Shown here: positions 4,173 through 37,930 of the stretch, piece after piece
How the letters are laid out: each line of letters starts with the position of its first letter
Numbering within the stretch: the stretch's first letter is position 1
Virus record (IMG/VR): IMGVR_UViG_3300044682_000021
Span: 1-64,000 of that record
Source: a virus
Strand: one strand, 5' to 3'
DNA: 64,000 nucleotides
Notes under the pieces: model-generated
The model's input: only the letters and a program-made list of their open reading frames with translations
The model's database searches: none
What the model was told of the DNA's origin: nothing
Position numbers and translations under genes: made by a program

Positions 4173-7100
4173 GCGCCGACCTCCACTTCCCAGTTCTCAA
4201 GGTACAACTGAAACGGTGCTGTGCTGGTAGCGACGTAGAAGAATAATTGCCCCTTGTTGGCGGTCAGTATCACTGCCAGCTTCTGCATCGCGCCACCCGT
4301 CGCCGGGAGCGTGATCGCCGCCGGCGACTGGCCATCGTAACTCGTAATGGTGAGCGTCACAGGCTGCGTAGCCGCGTAGCACGGCGAAACCTGCTTGAGG
4401 TGCATGTAGCCTTGCAGCCCGTGCGCCGTTCCCTGCGTCTGCCATGTCTCCGCCATCTCCGGCGTCGCTTCGTACACCCACTCGACGCCGAAGAACCGCC
4501 ACGCCACCTGATCCGTCGGCTCCAGCCGCATCGTATGCGCCACGAAGGGAGCGTTGAACGAGTACGCGATGACGCACTCGCCGTTGTGCTGCACTACTGG
4601 CGTGAACGCGTGCAGCGCCAATGCGTCGCCGTCGCGCACCTGCAATCCCTTCACGGCGTCGAACGTGTCCGCGTGCAGCAGGAATCCCTGCACCCACTTC
4701 GCCGCCTCGGTCCCTGCGTCGTACCAGTCCGTGTAGCGGTCGGCGATGGTTTCCGGCTTGGGGACGTAGGACGGCTCCCACGCTTGGATGACCGTGGGCG
4801 CGGATTGCGTGGCGAAGTTATCTGTCCATGCCAGTTGCAGGCCGAGGAAGTCGGACAGGATCTCGCCGCCCAGCGATACGGGCGTCTGGACGACGCCAGC
4901 GGACGTGGGGATGGTCGTAGGTGGTGCCACCTGCGCCCCGAACGCCATCGGCGTCGCCATCACGCCAGTCGCCGTCACAGGTTGCAGGTAGGCCCAGAGG
5001 TCGCCCCACTGCTCTCCGGCGCGCAGGTCGCCGCCGTCCCATTCCAGTGTGGCGATTACGGCGGATATCGTCCCAATGGGCGGCGTGAGCACGATAGCCA
5101 CGCCCGCCACATGGGTCTTGGTGAAATTGGCGACGATCCCCGGCGATAAAGGCCCGCCGTCGTTAATGCCCTGGATGACTACGCTTTCACTGTTGACGCC
5201 CGCGTCTATCTCCACCGTATCGCCGATCTCGAATCCTACGAAGCTTATTACTTTAACATTCTGTAATCCCGTAACCGTGATCGCAGCAGTGGTGGTGGTG
5301 CTAGCACCCAGCCCCGTGATGTCATTGGTGAAATCCTGTGCCACGAGGATCGGCCCGAGGCTCGACCCTGCGACCAGTTGCGGGTACGCACGCGTCTCGC
5401 TCAGCAGCGTCCCAGCCTGCTGCTCCAGGGCGTAGTACGTCGTGACTGTCATGGTGGCGAACGTGTCCGGCGTCCACGCATGACGGCGGATGTCGTAGGT
5501 CAGAGTACAGAATGCGCCAGTGGAGTTGCGGTACAGCGCCCGCAGGTAGCCCTCACACACGACCAGCCGGAACGACGCCGCGTAGGCGTAGTTGGGAGCG
5601 TATATCGTCTGACCGTTGTAAGTATAGTCCACCCCCGCCACACCATCGTGCGGGAACAGGTTATAGAGGTCCGCGTCCGTCAGCGACCCCCCGCCAGACG
5701 AGTAGATGCCATCCTCCGCCCACCAGTAGAGTGTCTTGCCGTCGTTGCAGTGGCCCCACGGCGCGGCGAGGCCTCGGGTGAGCGGCTGTTGGACGACGGA
5801 GTAACGTTGCGTGGGATTCGACAGTTGCGGGTACAAGGCCCACCACCGCTTCGGCGACGCTACGTAGCTGAGTCCGTCAATGGTCTCCCCGCCCAGCAGC
5901 GGCTCCGTTGGCGGCGTGATCTCTATGGGATAGGAGTCGGGCGCGGCATCCGGCGCGTAATTCTTCGACGGATACAGCACACCGGGACGCACCGGATCAC
6001 CGACCGCGAAGACCGTCCCCGCCGCGTCTGGTCCCCACATATACGGCAGAAGTTGCCGCGCCATTTCGGGCTCGTAGATGGTGACAGGGATGCCCGCGAG
6101 CAGCGCTCCGGCGTTCTCTACGAGGGATAAGAGATAGGTGTTGCCGCTGATCAGCGTAGGCCGCGTCCGCAGCGTGTAAACGTTAATCCCTCCGATCTGG
6201 ATCAGGTTGCCGGGGAGATAGCGCAAGAGGTTGCCCGGCGTCACGGCCTGGACCAGCAACGCAGTGCCGACGACCTGGTCGGTGGTCTGGAGGAACGGTA
6301 CATCAATCGAAGGCCACGGTTCGAGGTTGTCGAACTCCAGTTCCTCGCCCTCGGATACGGCTTCGTCGGAATAGTTGTCTACGAATGGAGACACGGACGA
6401 CGATGCCTGCTGGCCGACCTTGCGCCACGATGTAAGCGAGCCACCATAGCGGAACACGTCCCACGTGTCAATCTGAGCATCGTAAGCGGCGGATGGTGGG
6501 ACCACGCTCACCGGGTTGCGCCGGGGGTTGACGCCATAGCGCGTCTCCGGCGACGGATTCCCCTTCGCACCCGTGACGCTGGACCGTGGCCGCACGCGAT
6601 ACAGGTACGGCGCGCCACTGTCGCCTACGTCCGGCTGGAACCGCCCGAACACACTGCACTCGCCGACCGAGGCGTTCGTGGCAGCGCTTACATTGAACAG
6701 GAACTGGACCGCGTTGAGGTTCTGGAGCGACTTCGTCTGATCGTTGCCTACCCGCGTGAGAGCGGAAATGGGGAACACGATCTCCACCCATTGGCCGTCG
6801 CCGGGAGTGGTCTGGGCGCTGGAGGCGGTGGCAAGCTGGTTGTGCGACGCCGCCGCCTGCTCCTCGTCGATGGTCGCGCGCTGCGTGACCAGTTGCGCCG
6901 CGCCGAGTTGTGTCAGCGTGTTCTGCACCGCCGCCTCGATGTCCGAGACGCGCACCGTGTAGAAGTAGAAGTTCTGGGTGAAGGACCCGTCGCCTACGTC
7001 CAACAGGAACTTGAGTTCGTTCAGCGACGCGAGTGTGGTAATGGCGAACGAGATATGGATATAGTCCTCGGGCTGGTACGAGCCTCCGGCGTTGACGAAC

Positions 7101-8305
7101 AGGCCTGCGAGGGACGCAGTGGTCGTGATGGTGCCGATCCCCGCGCCGCTGAGGTTGAACCCCGCTGTGGGCGACGTGAGCGACTGGCCGACCGCCCACA
7201 GCTCCGGTGACGATCCGGCGGTGATCTGGATCGCAGGTGGGCAGGTGAACGATTCCGCGCTGGTATGCGTGTTGACCGTCGAAGTCTCGAAGCATACGGT
7301 CCCGTTCGGTCCCTCCACCACGTTCCACACGATGCACGTCTCCGGGCCGCTGCTGAACTTGACCAGCGCGCCGCGGCGGAGGGAGTTGACAAGGTTCTGC
7401 GTGTACAAGGATTCCCCGCCGTCGCCGGGGCCTGTGGGCATGGACGCCGGGACGACGACGCAATGGCCCGTGCCGCCAGTAAAGTAGTAGATTGCGGCGA
7501 TATCAATCGCGGTGGGCAAGGCCGGGAACACATCCTGCACCAGCACTTCCTCGCCCAGCGTGGAATTGATGATCGCCATCTGGCGGGTGTAATTGTTGAC
7601 CACCGACGATGTGGTGCCGATGGTGATCGGGGAGCCGTTAATGGCGATTCCGGATGGGTCCGCGAACACGGATTGTATGGTGTCACTGATGCGCGTCTGG
7701 ACCACTGGGGCGGATGCTACGCCGCTATGCGTGCCACCACTCCCGGCGGTGAAGAATGCAGACGCGATAATGGCGACTTGGTTGGCGGTGATGACCGCTT
7801 CCGGCTGCGACTGCGGCTCCGCGATCCCTACCTTCTGCTGCGTCACGACGTTCGTCGCCGAGGGCGCACTGAATTTCTGGTAGTCGCTGCCGTTGGCCAC
7901 GTACATCCACGGGTTCGGCGACTGAGCAGGACGGAATGGGATCGGGCTGGCCCCGGCGGACGCGCCTGCGCCTGCAAGGGAGCCAACGTTTGCCGCCGCC
8001 CCACCTGCGCTGCTGCCCATCCATATAGAGTCGTTGGAATAGCGGGCTATGAGTTGCGGCAGGTTGTCGGTGGCAAGAGCCGAGTAGGCGCGGATATTGG
8101 TCGCGTAGGCGCTGGTGTTGGCGGACAGGAGTTGCGGCAGGCCGGGGCGACAGCGTACCGAGGAGTCCTGCACTGCGCGGATATTCTGTGCGTAGGGATA
8201 TTTGTTGGGGCCGACGGCATCCGGCGCGCTGTTGGTCTTGACGCCGCCCCATTTGAGGCGGAAGGCCTCCTGCGGGCGCTTGTAGCCTTGGCCGGAATCA
8301 GCCAT
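4100..8305 (-). CDS. very large tail protein (candidate tail nozzle/stabilisation protein)
   Basis: 1401 codons; the start overlaps the previous stop (TGATG) with GGAGG 10 bases upstream. The N-terminus (PQEAFRLKWGGVKTNSAPDA, then YAQNIRAVQDSSVRCRPG) has the 'G-V-N ... A-N-I-x ... R-P-G' layout seen at the start of many podovirus tail nozzle or head-completion proteins. The rest is beta-rich with repeated small strands and about ten Trp-containing blades near the C-terminus (DRYTDWYDAGTEAAKWVQGF). It is much longer than T7 gp12 (about 790 residues). It pairs with the adjacent 453-residue protein. Assignment is by layout, not by a searched match. Confidence 0.6.
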   Translation of the reverse strand: MADSGQGYKRPQEAFRLKWGGVKTNSAPDAVGPNKYPYAQNIRAVQDSSVRCRPGLPQLLSANTSAYATNIRAYSALATDNLPQLIARYSNDSIWMGSSAGGAAANVGSLAGAGASAGASPIPFRPAQSPNPWMYVANGSDYQKFSAPSATNVVTQQKVGIAEPQSQPEAVITANQVAIIASAFFTAGSGGTHSGVASAPVVQTRISDTIQSVFADPSGIAINGSPITIGTTSSVVNNYTRQMAIINSTLGEEVLVQDVFPALPTAIDIAAIYYFTGGTGHCVVVPASMPTGPGDGGESLYTQNLVNSLRRGALVKFSSGPETCIVWNVVEGPNGTVCFETSTVNTHTSAESFTCPPAIQITAGSSPELWAVGQSLTSPTAGFNLSGAGIGTITTTASLAGLFVNAGGSYQPEDYIHISFAITTLASLNELKFLLDVGDGSFTQNFYFYTVRVSDIEAAVQNTLTQLGAAQLVTQRATIDEEQAAASHNQLATASSAQTTPGDGQWVEIVFPISALTRVGNDQTKSLQNLNAVQFLFNVSAATNASVGECSVFGRFQPDVGDSGAPYLYRVRPRSSVTGAKGNPSPETRYGVNPRRNPVSVVPPSAAYDAQIDTWDVFRYGGSLTSWRKVGQQASSSVSPFVDNYSDEAVSEGEELEFDNLEPWPSIDVPFLQTTDQVVGTALLVQAVTPGNLLRYLPGNLIQIGGINVYTLRTRPTLISGNTYLLSLVENAGALLAGIPVTIYEPEMARQLLPYMWGPDAAGTVFAVGDPVRPGVLYPSKNYAPDAAPDSYPIEITPPTEPLLGGETIDGLSYVASPKRWWALYPQLSNPTQRYSVVQQPLTRGLAAPWGHCNDGKTLYWWAEDGIYSSGGGSLTDADLYNLFPHDGVAGVDYTYNGQTIYAPNYAYAASFRLVVCEGYLRALYRNSTGAFCTLTYDIRRHAWTPDTFATMTVTTYYALEQQAGTLLSETRAYPQLVAGSSLGPILVAQDFTNDITGLGASTTTTAAITVTGLQNVKVISFVGFEIGDTVEIDAGVNSESVVIQGINDGGPLSPGIVANFTKTHVAGVAIVLTPPIGTISAVIATLEWDGGDLRAGEQWGDLWAYLQPVTATGVMATPMAFGAQVAPPTTIPTSAGVVQTPVSLGGEILSDFLGLQLAWTDNFATQSAPTVIQAWEPSYVPKPETIADRYTDWYDAGTEAAKWVQGFLLHADTFDAVKGLQVRDGDALALHAFTPVVQHNGECVIAYSFNAPFVAHTMRLEPTDQVAWRFFGVEWVYEATPEMAETWQTQGTAHGLQGYMHLKQVSPCYAATQPVTLTITSYDGQSPAAITLPATGGAMQKLAVILTANKGQLFFYVATSTAPFQLYLENWEVEVGAWARQDNYLRYRNLGSSAGDQARI

Positions 8306-9666
8306 CAGGAGGCCGCCTCCGCCGGGTCAAGGTCGGGCGTGTACTCAGGGTTCATGTTCGATTCCAACTGAGATTGGCCGTACAGGAGTTTGGCGAACTC
8401 TCCCGACTCGTCGATGCGCGATGCGGCGAGCGACGCCTGCCACAGGAACCGGGAATAGAGTGGCACGGTAGCCATGAACTCCTGTCCGCCCATTTTGAAC
8501 GCGGCGAGGTGTTGTGCGTAGTCGAGGATGGCGTCGTAGGCCCCACGGTCCACTTGCAGGAAGTCGGTGGCGAGCACGGGCACTGGCGCGTTCTGCACGA
8601 CGGTTGCGGTCAGGGAATACGGCCCCGCGTCCGGCGGGGGGTTCAGCGCTACGAGGTTTAGCCCCGCGGTCAGGGCTTCCGTCGCAGGCCCCGGTGCGTG
8701 CGCCTCCCAGCCAGTCTGGTAGAGGTCTGCCGATCGTACCGCATCAACGCGCAATGGGACGCCATTGACGCGCAGGCCCAGCGTAGCTGGAGCCGCAGCC
8801 AGCAGCTCCAGTCCCTGCCGATACCGCCCTTCACAATACTTGGCGCGGAGCGGATCTTTCGCGTTCGACTCGGTGCCCAGCAGGTCCATCAGCGAGCCCC
8901 AGCGCAGCAGCCAGGTCCAATCATCGGGGATGGACAGCGTGGAGGGAGCAGCGGCGGATAGCGTGGCCCCGGATTGGACAACCAGCAACTCGTAGCTGCC
9001 GGGGATCGCAGGAGGCACGTCGGTGTCGAAGGTCAGCGTAGGCTCGGTGGTCACGCGGAACGTGCTAGGCGTCTGGTTGCTGGCGGTGGCGTATCCCACG
9101 TCGAACGAGTCCAGCGACCATGTGTCCTCCGGCCACAGTACAATCGACGACGGCAGGCCGAATCCCGCGACAGGCTGGTACACGACTCGGCGGATGGCGA
9201 GGGTGGTATCGGGGACCGCGTTGCGGGTGTAGCCGGGGGTGACTGGCAGCTTGATCCGCGTCAGCGTGCAGCCGCTGGTAGCCAGCGTTTCGTCCCGGCG
9301 GCGCTGAAGGGCGGCGATCAGGTTGGCGATGCTGAACTGGCGCGATCCGGTCCACGTCAACGGATAGGTGGCCGTCAGGGGCTCCAGCAGCGAGTATTCC
9401 ATCGACTCGTAGAGGGATTGATCCGTGACCGTGTAGGGGCGGAGGGACGCCGCAGCCGCAGTGAGGTCATAGAACACAGTTCCCTGCGTGCTGGGTAGGG
9501 TGAAATCCCCGCGCTGTTGGCCCGTGAAGGCGTTCCACGTCCGAAGGGCCTCTTGGAGCAGCACAGTGAGTTCCGCAGGCGACCAGAACTGCATGGTAGG
9601 GTCGTAGAGCCGCGATGCGAGGTCGGATTGCGCGGTGGCCAGAGTGACGTAAGCGTAAGTGGCCAT
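8305..9666 (-). CDS. structural protein, tail/connector associated
   Basis: 453 codons. The N-terminal 60 residues (LATAQSDLASRLYDP, WSPAELTVLLQEALRTWNAF) are helical and resemble the start of adaptor or tail-tube proteins that dock on the portal. The remainder alternates beta segments, and the C-terminal 70 residues are helical again (YDAILDYAQHLAAFKMGG). It is directly upstream of and coupled to the 1401-residue tail protein, so the two probably assemble together. Exact role not known. Confidence 0.6.
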   Translation of the reverse strand: MATYAYVTLATAQSDLASRLYDPTMQFWSPAELTVLLQEALRTWNAFTGQQRGDFTLPSTQGTVFYDLTAAAASLRPYTVTDQSLYESMEYSLLEPLTATYPLTWTGSRQFSIANLIAALQRRRDETLATSGCTLTRIKLPVTPGYTRNAVPDTTLAIRRVVYQPVAGFGLPSSIVLWPEDTWSLDSFDVGYATASNQTPSTFRVTTEPTLTFDTDVPPAIPGSYELLVVQSGATLSAAAPSTLSIPDDWTWLLRWGSLMDLLGTESNAKDPLRAKYCEGRYRQGLELLAAAPATLGLRVNGVPLRVDAVRSADLYQTGWEAHAPGPATEALTAGLNLVALNPPPDAGPYSLTATVVQNAPVPVLATDFLQVDRGAYDAILDYAQHLAAFKMGGQEFMATVPLYSRFLWQASLAASRIDESGEFAKLLYGQSQLESNMNPEYTPDLDPAEAAS

Positions 9667-30454: not shown

Positions 30455-30484
30455 ATTTAACTCATATTGCGGATTACGTGTCAA
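30455..30484 (-). promoter_or_regulatory. minus-strand promoter for the capsid unit
   Basis: On the minus strand TTGACA (30484-30479) and TTAAAT (30460-30455) are 18 bases apart. The predicted transcript begins near 30448 and runs into the scaffold/coat genes. Its leader contains a hairpin (CTGCGA/TCGCAG). It overlaps the end of the 84-codon gene. Confidence 0.6.
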
Positions 30485-30728
30485 GTAAATTCGCATCGCC
30501 ACCCACGTCAACGCACTCGTTGTTCTCGAATTCCGCCGACGCCGCACAGCCGCGAGTGAGGTTTATGGTGAGGCGTCCGGTGGCGCGTTCGCTGACAAGG
30601 ACGCACAGAACGTCGATCACGAAGCCCGCGAGTTCGCGGCGGTAGCGCAACCAGCGGCGGGTGCGGCGGTAGAAGTCGTCGGCGATGCCGATGTCGAGGG
30701 CAGAAGGTGGTGCCACGCTAGACGACAC
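30474..30728 (-). CDS. hypothetical protein next to HNH gene
   Basis: 84 codons from GTG at 30728 with GGGAGG 6 bases upstream; a longer frame starts at 30776. The chain (ALDIGIADDFYRRTRRWLRY, ELAGFVIDVLCVLVSERATG) mixes a basic helix with a hydrophobic helix. Its start overlaps the last codons of the HNH gene by 11 bases. No known family. Confidence 0.5.
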   Translation of the reverse strand: MSSSVAPPSALDIGIADDFYRRTRRWLRYRRELAGFVIDVLCVLVSERATGRLTINLTRGCAASAEFENNECVDVGGDANLLDT

Positions 30729-31221
30729 GACCGCCTCCCTCGGATTCGGAGATATTGTGAAGGTAAAATGGCGCATCCTTCCATGAAATTCCTCTTCGTA
30801 TGTCGGATACGGTTTTGAAACTTACGCCACATAAAGCTGCGGTGAGCCTCTGAGGAAGGTTCATGCTGTCTAGATCGTAAATCAAAGCAGCAAACGGAAG
30901 AGTGAGTGTGGTTGTAGATCGGCCACGGACGTTCTCTTTAAGAGACACGAAGCGGCAGTTAGAGGGACAATAGTTTCCGTCAATGTCGATACGATCTATT
31001 TGAAGGCCATCTCTCCACCCGTTAGTCAACGCCCACTCGAAAAACTTTCTACGGTCGTTTAGCCACTCGTCGCATATCCGTATTCCTCGGCCTCCATAGC
31101 GATGATAATTTATGTCACGTGCGTAATAACAGCGACCCCGCATAGACATGAAAACCATGTAGAGTTGGTGGTTACGCATCCCGTGTTTCGGGTGAGATCG
31201 CTTGGGATACTTCAAAGTCAT
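30718..31221 (-). CDS. HNH-type homing endonuclease
   Basis: 167 codons. The core follows the phage HNH pattern: LYMVFMSMRGRCYYARDINY, YHRYGGRGIRICDEWL, GLQIDRIDIDGNYCPSNCRF. A C-terminal DNA-binding helix-turn-helix is likely (LTAALCGVSFKTVSDIRRG). The ATG directly abuts the portal stop codon. The last 10 residues (SESEGGGRVV) nearly repeat the last 10 of the portal (SESPGGGKVV), though coded with different codons, which suggests that the gene landed in the 3' end of a portal gene. It should cleave a site in related phages lacking the insertion. Confidence 0.85.
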   Translation of the reverse strand: MTLKYPKRSHPKHGMRNHQLYMVFMSMRGRCYYARDINYHRYGGRGIRICDEWLNDRRKFFEWALTNGWRDGLQIDRIDIDGNYCPSNCRFVSLKENVRGRSTTTLTLPFAALIYDLDSMNLPQRLTAALCGVSFKTVSDIRRGISWKDAPFYLHNISESEGGGRVV

Positions 31222-33255
31222 TCAGACTACCTTTCCCCCGCCCGGACTCTCGCTCACAAATGACCGACCGTTCGGCTTCTGCTTCAACTCAGGCTGCTGC
31301 TGGCCGGAGGGCGGCGTGCCCTCCTGCTGCTTGCCACCCGCGCCCGCGCCTGCGGGATTCATCTCGCCCTGCTCGGTGAGCGACATGCCGAGTTCCTTCA
31401 TCCGCGCCGCGAAGATCAGGTTCTCCTCCTGCTCTTTCTTGAACTTCTCGCGCACCGTGGAGCCTTCGATGGTGCCGTAGTTGGGCACGTTGCAGGCGTC
31501 GGCGATGGTCTGCGAATCGATCTGGATGCCAGCTTTCTTGAGCTGGACCAACAGGAGGCGCTGTGCCATTTGCGTGATCTCGTGCAAGGATCGCGGCGTG
31601 ATGAGGAACCGCAGCGTGGACGCGAATATCCGCGCCCGCTCGATCATCCCCGTCGGCGACGGCTTGGGCTTGTCCCCCGTGCCGGGGTCTTCGCTGGGCA
31701 GGTGCGAGGGTATCATCCGCGTGGGATCGTAGTCGAATGTCTCCCGCGTCATGTTGTCCTCGCCCACCACCTGCATGAAGCGGGCGGGGGAGACGTACTG
31801 GAGGAGCAGGAATTTCACCTGCGATGCGATTTCGCGGATGGGCGGCTCCATTGAGCGCGACATATCCTCGACGATGGGGCCGGCGGATTCGAGTAACTTC
31901 TGAAGGTCGTCGCCCGCCATGCGTGCCTTCGCCAGATTCTGGATATCGTGGATGCCGTGCTGCGAATCCATCGCGTCCTTCAGCAACTCGTAGAACTTGA
32001 GCGTCGATTCCTGCGTGACGTAGACCTCGGGAGGAACCGGGATCTCGAACGCCTTGGTCGCCTGCGTCCCGTCGAACCCGGCGCGCATTCGCGGCTGCAT
32101 GGGGTCGAACTGCTGCGCCTCCTTCTTGGTCACGGCGTTGATGTCGTAGGCGAGAGGGAGGTCCATCTTGGCGCGTTCCTTGTCCATCGTGCCGCGTTCG
32201 AGTTCGGTCATCGCCTGTTGGAGGTCGAAGCCATCGCGCACCATCGAGTAGCCAAGAGGTTCCCACGGCCACTTGTCGAGGCAGAAGGGGACGCCGGGGA
32301 AGCGCCCGTGCCAGTCGAACGACGTGTTGTCGTACATCAGGCAGGACTCCGACGAGATCAGCAATCGGCGGCGTGGATACAGCAACTCTCCGGGCTTCAC
32401 GGTATAGGCCCATGAGGTATCCGGCTCGCCCATCGGGATGTCGCGGTCGGTGGTGTTACGAGTGAGGTCGATGACGTAGGTGTAGCGGATCGGGATCATC
32501 AGGTCCGCGATGCCCGGTGTGTATTGCGAGGGGGATTTGCCGAAGCCGCCGAACATGCGCTGCCAGATGTTGCCCGTGGCGGACTTGCGGATTTCGTTCG
32601 AGTACCAATAGAGCGAGGAGGTGGGCCGCAGCCACTCCTGATGCTTGTGGAACATGGAGTGCGCCATGTAGATCGGCATCTCGTCGAGGATGGTCATGGC
32701 GTAGGCCTGCTGGAAGTCGCCGCTGGTGGGGAGCTGGCAGGGCAGAATGCAGGGCGCGCCGTAGGTAAGAAGGCGGACTTGGCCCTCGCCTTGGCCGCCC
32801 ATGTCGCGGGAGTAGACGGGGCGGACCCAGCCGGTGCAGGTGGTCGAGGCCCACGCGAGGGCTTCGCGGATGGCGAGGTCGGCGGAGGTTTCGAGCCACC
32901 ACGCGCGGGTGTAGAGGTTGAACATCTGGGCGGAAGCGGCGTAGGCAGGATTGTCGGAGGCGTAGCCCCACAGCGGGCGGAGTTTCGCGAGCGTGCCGAC
33001 GACCTCGCGGACGTTGCGCTTCAGATGGTTGGAGTTGAGGCGGGAGCGGTACTTGGCGGGCTGGGGGCCGCTAGAGCGCCCGGCGATGGTGTCGATGGCC
33101 GCCTTGAAATCTTCCGTGCCGCGCTGGGACTTGAGCCACGCCTGACCGGATTCGGTGCATTCGTTGAGCCAGCCGAGGCGGCGTTCGGGTGGCGTGGCGG
33201 CGGGTGGCACCTGCCACTCGTGAAGGCGTCCGTCGCGGCGTTGCTCGTCGCTCAT
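31222..33255 (-). CDS. portal protein
   Basis: 677 codons; the ATG overlaps the previous stop (ATGA). The central part (RGTMDKERAKMDLPLAYDIN; VTQESTLKFYELLKDAMDSQ; GIHDIQNLAKARMAGDDLQK) and wing/clip regions are typical of large podovirus portals. The C-terminus is Gly/Gln-rich (GAGAGGKQQEGTPPSGQQQP). It would form the dodecameric DNA gate at one capsid vertex, working with the terminase encoded just upstream. The tail SESPGGGKVV is echoed at the end of the neighbouring HNH protein. Confidence 0.85.
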   Translation of the reverse strand: MSDEQRRDGRLHEWQVPPAATPPERRLGWLNECTESGQAWLKSQRGTEDFKAAIDTIAGRSSGPQPAKYRSRLNSNHLKRNVREVVGTLAKLRPLWGYASDNPAYAASAQMFNLYTRAWWLETSADLAIREALAWASTTCTGWVRPVYSRDMGGQGEGQVRLLTYGAPCILPCQLPTSGDFQQAYAMTILDEMPIYMAHSMFHKHQEWLRPTSSLYWYSNEIRKSATGNIWQRMFGGFGKSPSQYTPGIADLMIPIRYTYVIDLTRNTTDRDIPMGEPDTSWAYTVKPGELLYPRRRLLISSESCLMYDNTSFDWHGRFPGVPFCLDKWPWEPLGYSMVRDGFDLQQAMTELERGTMDKERAKMDLPLAYDINAVTKKEAQQFDPMQPRMRAGFDGTQATKAFEIPVPPEVYVTQESTLKFYELLKDAMDSQHGIHDIQNLAKARMAGDDLQKLLESAGPIVEDMSRSMEPPIREIASQVKFLLLQYVSPARFMQVVGEDNMTRETFDYDPTRMIPSHLPSEDPGTGDKPKPSPTGMIERARIFASTLRFLITPRSLHEITQMAQRLLLVQLKKAGIQIDSQTIADACNVPNYGTIEGSTVREKFKKEQEENLIFAARMKELGMSLTEQGEMNPAGAGAGGKQQEGTPPSGQQQPELKQKPNGRSFVSESPGGGKVV

Positions 33256-36099: not shown

Positions 36100-36797
36100 T
36101 CGTCCGCCTCCTCATAGTCGCCATCGACGGTTACTAGGTCGCGGTCCCGCGCGGGCATGAACGTCGGCACACTCTCACTCGCAGGTGGCAACGCCTGCTG
36201 TTGCCCCGCGACCAGTTGGGCGTTCCGCTGCCGCGCCTCGACGATCCGGCGGATGGTGTCCTCCGGCGCGGGGGCGGCGATGGCAGCGGCCTTGGCGTCG
36301 GCGGTTGCGGTGGCGGTGGCGTTGGTGACGATCGAGATTTGCGCGCCCTTGGCGGCGGGCAGGAAGGCCATGTGCTTGAGGTGGGCCATGCGGTCCTCGA
36401 CGCCTAAGGGATTAGCCGCGCACTCCGATGACACGTCCACGATCTCTTCGTGACGCTGGGCCGCCTTCACGACGCCCAACTGTTGCGCCTGCACGCGGAT
36501 GGCTTCCGCAATCACGCCGAACAGGCGCGTGGGGGAGATGCCAGCGGCGACCGCGAACGCTTCCAGCGGCAGCACGCGGCGCACGTAGGAGGGGTAGAGG
36601 AGGTTGTCGTAGCGGGCGATGAACTTGCGTGCTTCGGGAGCGTCAGAGGCACGCAGGGCCTCCAGTGCCGCAGGGAGGCCGCCGCGAATCTTGGCGATCA
36701 GGTGCGTGATGCGCGGGGCCTCGGCGACCGTGTTAGGCGGGACGCCCAGCATGTCGTAGGCGAGGGCGCGCTGGCGGGCGATGGGCAGAGGGCTCAC
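36096..36797 (-). CDS. candidate terminase small subunit
   Basis: 233 codons with a GTG start at 36797 that overlaps the methylase stop (GTGA), which fixes the start. The N-terminal half is helical with a possible HTH (LEAFAVAAGISPTRLFGVIA), a middle Ala/Thr-rich region (TNATATATADAKAAAIAA) and an acidic C-terminus (TVDGDYEEADE). Domain order and position just upstream of the large subunit fit a small terminase subunit, but no diagnostic motif exists, so this is inference. Confidence 0.5.
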   Translation of the reverse strand: MSPLPIARQRALAYDMLGVPPNTVAEAPRITHLIAKIRGGLPAALEALRASDAPEARKFIARYDNLLYPSYVRRVLPLEAFAVAAGISPTRLFGVIAEAIRVQAQQLGVVKAAQRHEEIVDVSSECAANPLGVEDRMAHLKHMAFLPAAKGAQISIVTNATATATADAKAAAIAAPAPEDTIRRIVEARQRNAQLVAGQQQALPPASESVPTFMPARDRDLVTVDGDYEEADE

Positions 36798-37396
36798 GGG
36801 AGTTGCCTCGCTATGTATTCGGAGTAGGCTGGCGGGATGGCTTCTCGCGTCTCGTGGCGATTCATCCACCCTACACCCATCTCACGCCCCCACAACTTCT
36901 CAGGGTCTTGTCGTCCAAACTCAGCATATATGCGAAGGCGACTTTCGTGGTTATGGGGATTAAGAATAGGCTTGGTAACATTGCATCGCGGTCTGGCGGC
37001 GGTCAGCCTAGGAGACTCAAATAGGCGATGGCGATGGATACGCAAGCCAAACATGGTTCCACAAAGCACGAGTGGCTCACGAAGCGGTGCCCCAACTACG
37101 TTCTCGATTACCCAAGCTGCGGTCGAGGCCATAAGTCTATCGCGCATAGCGTCAATAAGCATAGGTTGTGGTATGGCTAGATGCCTCATAGCAGCTGAAT
37201 AAGATTGGCACGGCGGACTCGCCCACACGAAGTCGAATCCATCCAGCGGATAGGTCATCGCGTCGCCAAGGACGAACGTGAACGGATACCTCGGCTGCGG
37301 CTTGATATCCACGCCGATGATTTCCGCGTCAGGCCACGCACGATGCAACCCCATCGCCGCACCGCCGGCCCCTGAAAAAAGATCCAATATTCTCAT
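36794..37396 (-). CDS. C5-cytosine DNA methyltransferase, compact
   Basis: 200 codons, MRILDLFSGAGGAAMGLHRA. Motif I is DLFSGAGG, motif IV carries the catalytic Cys63 in ASPPCQSYS, motif VI is IENV (98-100) and motif VIII RHRLFE. It transfers methyl from S-adenosylmethionine to cytosine. At 200 residues it is shorter than usual (300-400), so its target-recognition region must be small. The ATG is coupled to the HNH gene (ATGA). A second, differently coded start of motif I lies upstream of the HNH gene (37889-37930). Confidence 0.8.
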   Translation of the reverse strand: MRILDLFSGAGGAAMGLHRAWPDAEIIGVDIKPQPRYPFTFVLGDAMTYPLDGFDFVWASPPCQSYSAAMRHLAIPQPMLIDAMRDRLMASTAAWVIENVVGAPLREPLVLCGTMFGLRIHRHRLFESPRLTAARPRCNVTKPILNPHNHESRLRIYAEFGRQDPEKLWGREMGVGWMNRHETREAIPPAYSEYIARQLP

Positions 37397-37860
37397 GCCC
37401 TTGCCTGTGTTAATGTCGTACCCTCTATTTGTCCGGTCAGAGTCAGTTCGTAATGGTGATTCGCGCATAGCAGCCTGAACTCCTTTAGGTGTTTAAGCAC
37501 ATACCCCGGATGTCGGGGATGGCGGAATGGCCGATTGCGCGTCGTCGGAACATAATCCACATGCAGCCAGTTTCGATTCGATGTCCGACACGAAGGGACA
37601 ACACAACCTCCACCAAGAGCCTCTATGATTCGCCGACGCTCCTCTCGGTGTTTCTCTCTCCAAGCACCGGGGTTCTTGGCTAGGCGATTTCCGTTGTAAG
37701 CCTTCATCGCGTCCGGGTGCTGCTGCATCCATAGTTTCGTCTTCTTTTGGCCGGCTTTCTTGGCGCACTTCTGTGAGCAATACTGACGATTGTTGTCGCC
37801 CTGAGTAAAAACGCCAAATGACTTGCTGCATGGCTGGTAACGGCAGGTGCGCGTTTTCAT
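37393..37860 (-). CDS. HNH endonuclease with zinc fingers
   Basis: 155 codons from ATG at 37860. The N-terminal zinc-finger (CRYQPCSKSFGVFTQG, then YCSQKCAKKAG) is followed by a basic helix of the NUMOD/AP2-like type (NRLAKNPGAWREKHREERRR) and an HNH core (CVVPSCRTSNRNWLHVDYVP, LLCANHHYELT). It separates a 14-codon methylase start remnant from the complete methylase, as expected of a homing endonuclease insertion. The 3' end is coupled to the methylase by ATGA. Confidence 0.8.
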   Translation of the reverse strand: MKTRTCRYQPCSKSFGVFTQGDNNRQYCSQKCAKKAGQKKTKLWMQQHPDAMKAYNGNRLAKNPGAWREKHREERRRIIEALGGGCVVPSCRTSNRNWLHVDYVPTTRNRPFRHPRHPGYVLKHLKEFRLLCANHHYELTLTGQIEGTTLTQARA

Positions 37861-37888
37861 GGGTCCATGATACCACAAAATAAGTCAA

Positions 37889-37930
37889 ACCCGCGCCGCA
37901 GAATAGGTCTAACACTCGTCGAGGAGTCAC
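37889..37930 (-). pseudogene. remnant 5' end of a cytosine methylase gene
   Basis: GTG at 37930 is coupled (GTGA) to the upstream gene and encodes MTPRRVLDLFCGAG, which is methylase motif I. The frame then leaves the family. After the HNH gene the motif returns as MRILDLFSGAGG with different codons. This is best read as the original start of the methylase gene, cut off by the HNH insertion. Confidence 0.7.

Follow-up and report, generated by a model that had tools for sequence, protein, structure and literature searches.

An HNH endonuclease-type gene at the 3' end of a phage portal gene and the exchange of the portal tail

Introduction

Where homing endonucleases occur in essential genes, this is commonly put down to introns, to inteins or to intergenic sites at which they do no harm. 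In the phage genome investigated here, an HNH gene begins at the base adjoining the stop codon of the portal gene, and both encoded proteins end in similar residues. This raises the question which of the two tails is the native portal end, and how the nuclease gene came to lie between them. The window, i.e. the whole stretch of DNA that was analysed, comprises 64,000 nucleotides and is almost all of the 64,095-base virus record IMGVR_UViG_3300044682_000021 (IMG/VR). The structural genes are encoded by its minus strand. For cultured relatives of the phage, the host is the acidobacterium Tunturiibacter.

Results

The locus contains the following features, given in window coordinates.

31222..33255, minus strand: portal gene P0002 (677 aa), into which the insertion took place; matches the annotated portal in Tunturiibacter phages with 27% identity
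31225..31257, minus strand: substitute portal tail VSESPGGGKVV; holds the ribosome-binding-like GGGGGAAAGG ahead of the HNH start
30718..31221, minus strand: HNH endonuclease gene P0001 (167 aa); its reading frame runs through the captured native portal tail
30754..31221, minus strand: HNH core and C-terminal helix-turn-helix (HTH); GC 47% versus 64% for the portal; read as foreign
30721..30753, minus strand: captured native portal tail ISESEGGGRVV, forming the HNH C-terminus; GC 64%; identical to the empty site of L053 at 26/33 nt and to L056 at 10/11 aa
30734..30739, minus strand: GGGAGG, Shine-Dalgarno-like by inspection, within the captured tail, 5 nt ahead of GTG 30728
30474..30728, minus strand: downstream gene P0003, start GTG 30728 or GTG 30716; located directly 3' of the portal in relatives

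The portal protein ends with KPNGRSFVSESPGGGKVV (stop TGA) and the HNH protein with FYLHNISESEGGGRVV (stop TAG). The portal stop and the HNH start are contiguous (TGA followed by ATG), and the start of P0003 either overlaps the HNH stop (GTG 30728) or comes just after it (GTG 30716). An initial annotation had described a portal end SESPGGGKVV, an HNH gene starting at the very next base and ending in frame with SESEGGGRVV, and different serine codons in the two tails (AGC/AGT in the portal, TCC/TCC in the HNH gene). All of this was confirmed on the sequence. The coordinates given there for the HNH gene, 30718-31260, are correct at the lower end; the upper end takes in the portal tail, as the HNH reading frame extends only to 31221.

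When 18,502 pairs of adjacent ORFs on the same strand of the window were ranked by C-terminus-anchored similarity, the portal/HNH pair came first, with a score of 43 over 11 residues. With this rank, chance was rejected as source of the likeness. The tails are identical at 8 of 11 residues, but only at 16 of 33 bases, and no direct repeat of at least 10 nt was found between them. Thus, the duplication is detectable in the protein only. The initial annotation had also proposed that the portal received a recoded end. A substitute tail is in agreement with our results; recoding beyond random synonymous choice is not supported, as the 16 identical bases are fewer than the expected 19.4 ± 2.1, but not significantly so (P = 0.086). 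Since, moreover, a natural allele of the relative L003 resembles the portal tail, the latter is probably better understood as a divergent tail or allele from a related phage.

P0001 matched phrog_3377 (HNH endonuclease, E = 1.3e-35). The invariant columns of the HNH family, including R77, Y84, N88 and C89, are kept, as are the near-invariant D76 and P86, and the core of the predicted structure reached a pLDDT of about 95. A PDB fold search with this model gave only weak HTH matches and no significant match to a nuclease; hence the identification as nuclease rests on PHROGs and the conserved residues. On this basis, P0001 is likely to be a free-standing gene of the HNH homing endonuclease type in the portal 3' end. 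A group I intron was rejected, because no Rfam match was obtained in the window. An intein was rejected as well, since the HNH gene has its own start and stop codons and the portal frame is closed before it.

With a portal profile search, 80 related viral loci were collected. The closest portals are 74-79% identical to P0002, and no nuclease separates them from the neighbouring gene. The portal C-termini of relatives without the HNH gene, to which the initial annotation had pointed for comparison, carry the tail: six close relatives without an intervening nuclease end with the pattern [IV][ST]E[SA].GGG[RK][VT]V, namely ITESAGGGRVV in L052 and L053, ITESEGGGRVV in L056, ISESEGGGKTV in L054 and L055, and FISEAPGGGKTV in L003. 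More distant portals have a shorter form, e.g. RSTITES. Empty sites occur in L052, L053 and L056, where the start of the next gene overlaps the portal stop or adjoins it, and in the wider family. As the portals of the relatives carry the tail and the next gene follows directly, the tail is a portal feature, and the order before insertion was portal tail and downstream gene. The HNH gene is optional at the portal end: in two further portal lineages, L071/L072 and L067, a related HNH gene (43% and 38% identical to P0001) lies directly after the stop of portals with 49-51% identity. No captured tail was found in these HNHs. Portal-site HNHs form no supported clade in a tree of 73 HNHs, and a single origin of those of L071/L072, L067 and P0001 is not decided by it.

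L052 and L053 are 97-100% identical over long flanks, and about 65% identical in a tract (7867-8530) that begins in the last portal codons and takes in the downstream gene as well as the intergenic region. Judged from the alignment, this is a recombination tract at the portal end.

Further observations concern the portal loci of relatives and the wider surroundings. In L003, the portal and the downstream gene are separated by a 45-codon Arg/Trp-rich reading frame (4625-4759), at a position taken by HNH genes in other relatives. In L055 (4692-5312) the gene 3' of the portal is fused in frame, at its 3' end, to an HNH domain of a different type (CVDCGN...FDHVRGEK...CANCH); the junction of portal and downstream gene thus draws nucleases of several kinds. 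The portal genes of L117, L118, L125 and L126 were matched as two blocks with about 0.8 kb extra in the middle, possibly an intron, an intein or a nuclease insertion to judge from the match pattern. Plasmids yielded no relative of the portal, and the 297 Acidobacteria genomes surveyed contained five HNH relatives, none of which adjoins a portal among those examined.

The comparison with L053 distinguishes the two tails. Upstream of the tail, the portal is identical at 96/120 bases; its own tail reaches only 16/33, the HNH tail 26/33, and the two tails differ with a Fisher P of 0.02. The host gene thus has a divergent tail and the tail behind the nuclease is closer to relatives, the combination which marks mORF-type insertions. 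The suggestion of the initial annotation that the original portal tail survives as the HNH tail is borne out by these values. Furthermore, the HNH tail continues straight into the downstream gene, which the present portal tail does not, and is alignable there with L052 and L053. In protein, the HNH tail is nearest to L056 and the portal tail to the L003-type allele, with which it agrees at 8/11 aa and at no more than 20/33 nt, in a tail too short for a tree. The composition changes at the same place: the HNH core has 50% GC3 and the portal 87% GC3, and the GC border falls between the HNH core (47%) and the captured tail (64%).

Tails of 104 other HNHs were compared, and none resembled portal tails (best score 7 versus 50 for P0001). 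A common HNH feature was therefore rejected, and HNHs elsewhere with an end like SESEGGGRVV, named by the initial annotation as evidence against its proposal, were absent from this set. In the predicted structure, residues 148-167 lie outside the folded HNH and HTH parts with a pLDDT below 50; HNH homologues end close to the last HTH helix. Taken together, the identity to L053, the GC border, the position of the tail outside the fold and the comparison with 104 tails indicate that the HNH tail is native and the portal tail a substitute. The HNH gene thus inserted upstream of the last approximately 11 portal codons, and the native tail was captured as HNH C-terminus. With GGGAGG in the captured tail, P0003 keeps its ribosome-binding-like site, and the substitute tail provides GGGGGAAAGG to the HNH gene.

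The captured-tail arrangement is rare. A tail score of at least 25 was reached by 2 of 147 HNH genes with an upstream neighbour (0.02 expected), and these are the two clear cases. The second was found in the Ruminococcus gnavus phage phiRgIBDN1, in which the host gene gp50 ends with AWQPLPEPMRKE (tail PLPEPMRKE) and the HNH gene gp51 with KMPLPEPYKEE. The empty alleles of phiRgPS_6, phiRg507T2_3 and L223 end with AWQPLPEPYKE(E/V), followed by the same next gene. Over the 33-nt tails, the replaced host tail agrees with the empty alleles at 24 positions and the HNH tail at 31-32; HNH tail and downstream DNA together are identical to the empty allele of L223 at 72 of 74 bases. A substitute MRKE tail without HNH gene is present in phiRg519T2, L220 and L222. 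These alleles either were left behind when an HNH gene was lost or represent the source of the substitute tail; they could predate the HNH gene and would then be no scars of its loss. Thus, empty and occupied alleles and alleles with substitute tail but without HNH all occur in R. gnavus phages. In L142 (4001-4333), a related HNH gene with a captured MPLPEPY tail, ending with MPLPEPYNPEKGEKK, follows an unrelated gene, so the captured tail seems able to move along with the nuclease.

In addition, HNH genes were observed at the same junction of two phage genes in L022 (3191-3766) and L031 (2641-3228). The tails of host gene and HNH gene are alike in L022 (KWEAGRF and QKAGEF), but not in L031. 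L022 and L263 are weak further candidates, in which the likeness may be due to the Shine-Dalgarno sequence or to chance.

The initial annotation had seen the same pattern in another, unrelated HNH insertion of this genome, which we identify as the one at the DNA methyltransferase gene (36794-37930). This holds only loosely. The HNH gene P0004 (ATG 37860) lies ahead of the methyltransferase (ATG 37396), and two remnants lie upstream of P0004: MTPRRVLDLFCGAG, from 37930, is an orphaned start of the native methyltransferase, and TTATTTTGTGGT, at 37883, is a further relic, derived from the DLFCG codons. To judge from these relics, it looks like a mirror-image case at the 5' end of a gene. HNH and methyltransferase are also paired in Streptomyces phages: phage Forrest (L213) has an HNH of the same family (52% identical) before the methyltransferase, with the same 12-nt relic. 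In L060 the methyltransferase is present without HNH.

Discussion

The position of the HNH gene, its foreign core, the captured native tail and the substitute tail are best explained jointly, and with good probability, by a homing-type HNH gene in the portal 3' end that is spread by nuclease-driven conversion. The native end ISESEGGGRVV stayed joined to the downstream gene with its ribosome-binding-like site and became the C-terminus of the nuclease. We infer that phages without HNH gene have their native portal end cut by the nuclease, and that repair of the break off the donor genome would bring in a cassette of substitute portal tail, stop codon and HNH core. The substitute tail, half of whose bases differ from the native one, should for this reason escape cutting, and the essential portal protein would be kept. 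This tail was probably acquired by co-conversion from the portal of a related phage and not designed by mutation: the conserved protein at saturated synonymous sites suggests that each tail was long selected as a portal end, which favours an origin in another lineage over a duplication on the spot. Several results count against this explanation. The portal-site HNHs of L071 and L067 lack a captured tail, so an HNH gene can occupy this site without tail exchange, and portal-site HNHs lack a supported clade. The MRKE alleles without HNH in R. gnavus phages may be older than the HNH gene, the divergence of the tails is no greater than by random synonymous choice, and the fold search gave no nuclease match.

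A crossover of two portal-tail alleles, with the HNH as a passive passenger that no longer homes and the duplication as an artefact of the junction, is rather unlikely, though several results fit it. The portal end is a recombination tract even between L052 and L053, both without HNH; the tails of the window fit two natural allele types, L056-like (10/11) for the HNH and L003-like (8/11) for the portal; and both tail types occur without HNH in R. gnavus phages. However, such a mosaic does not account for a nuclease placed exactly between the two alleles in hosts and gene families that are unrelated in the two cases, nor for the repeated presence of homologous HNHs behind the portals of L071 and L067. 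The conserved HNH-family residues of P0001 are intact, too. As a crossover provoked by the nuclease is already part of the homing explanation, the difference concerns only the role of cutting.

Convergence at the RNA level, by which both tails would have arrived at similar GGG/GGAGG codons as ribosome-binding site of the next gene, is very improbable. Both window tails do contain purine-rich, Shine-Dalgarno-like stretches at suitable distances, as do the tails of the R. gnavus phages and of L022. But SES and VV, which surround the glycines in both tails, are not part of a Shine-Dalgarno sequence, and the agreement of the HNH tail with L056 (10/11 residues) and L053 (26/33 bases) and of the phiRgIBDN1 region with its empty site (72/74 bases) is not accounted for, so that the empty-site comparison largely refutes this idea. 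Use as Shine-Dalgarno sequence is probably an added constraint on the tails and not their origin. Hardly any more credit can be given to a local tandem duplication of the portal end by the insertion (target-site duplication) with later drift. Two tail copies do flank the insert in the right order; a free copy, however, would lose its protein sequence first, and saturated synonymous sites with conserved amino acids (16/33 nt versus 8/11 aa) fit two long-selected portal ends.

For the homing explanation, the closest known arrangement comes from fungal mitochondria, in which mobile endonuclease ORFs (mORFs) carry foreign C-termini; it is described for atp6 of Allomyces macrogynus and for atp6, atp9, cox2 and nad3 of Glomus sp. 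(PMC3630166). According to this source, native C-terminus copies in Glomus match the sister species at 91-98% of the nucleotides and inserted copies at 64-81%, the protein sequence being almost unchanged, and the mORFs of atp6 and nad3 are in phase with the gene. As in the phage, an endonuclease ORF lies towards the 3' end of an essential gene, brings a substitute C-terminus and leaves the native one downstream. In contrast, the mORFs described there are of LAGLIDADG or GIY-YIG type in mitochondria, and the phage case concerns HNH genes in dsDNA phages, with a native tail that is much shorter (11 codons), forms the nuclease C-terminus and shares sequence with the ribosome-binding region of the gene that follows.

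Free-standing phage homing endonucleases, as far as the accessible text on T4 seg/mob genes and ICP1 HEGs goes (PMC2988022, PMC10448857), are likewise intron-less nucleases beside essential genes, with starts that abut or overlap the upstream stop and a link to genetic exchange. They are, however, presented there as intergenic insertions or with genes in pieces and not as 3'-end exchange with capture of the native end. In the split genes nrdA/mobE of phage Aeh1 and gene 60/mobA of T4, an endonuclease also inserts into an essential coding region; these host genes are split into two functional pieces (PMC2988022), whereas the portal is one full-length protein here. The I-HmuI-like HNH endonucleases of lactococcal Skunavirus share recurring insertion points and a variable DNA-binding C-terminus, and the available portion of that report mentions no tail exchange (PMC12724721). 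In the open-access literature searched, partly in excerpt, no phage precedent for an exchange of the host-gene tail was found. The arrangement is thus known from fungal mitochondrial mORFs with other nuclease families, and its occurrence in phages with an HNH appears to be new as far as these searches go.

By exchanging the host-gene end, a nuclease can live in an essential gene in a third manner, so far described, to the extent of our searches, only in fungal mitochondria. Whether phage HNH genes use it as a recurrent mobility strategy, with a cleavage-resistant substitute host end, an own ribosome-binding site and the native end absorbed as C-terminus, is a question to which we lean slightly towards yes. 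If true, the element would live inside essential genes without intron or intein, convergent with the mitochondrial mORFs. The two occurrences are in unrelated phages, one of them with three allele types in named R. gnavus isolates, which makes the explanation testable in cultivable phages. For annotation, HNH proteins may end in pieces of neighbouring genes, which is misleading; the matching of tails, in turn, provides a cheap screen for active homing sites.
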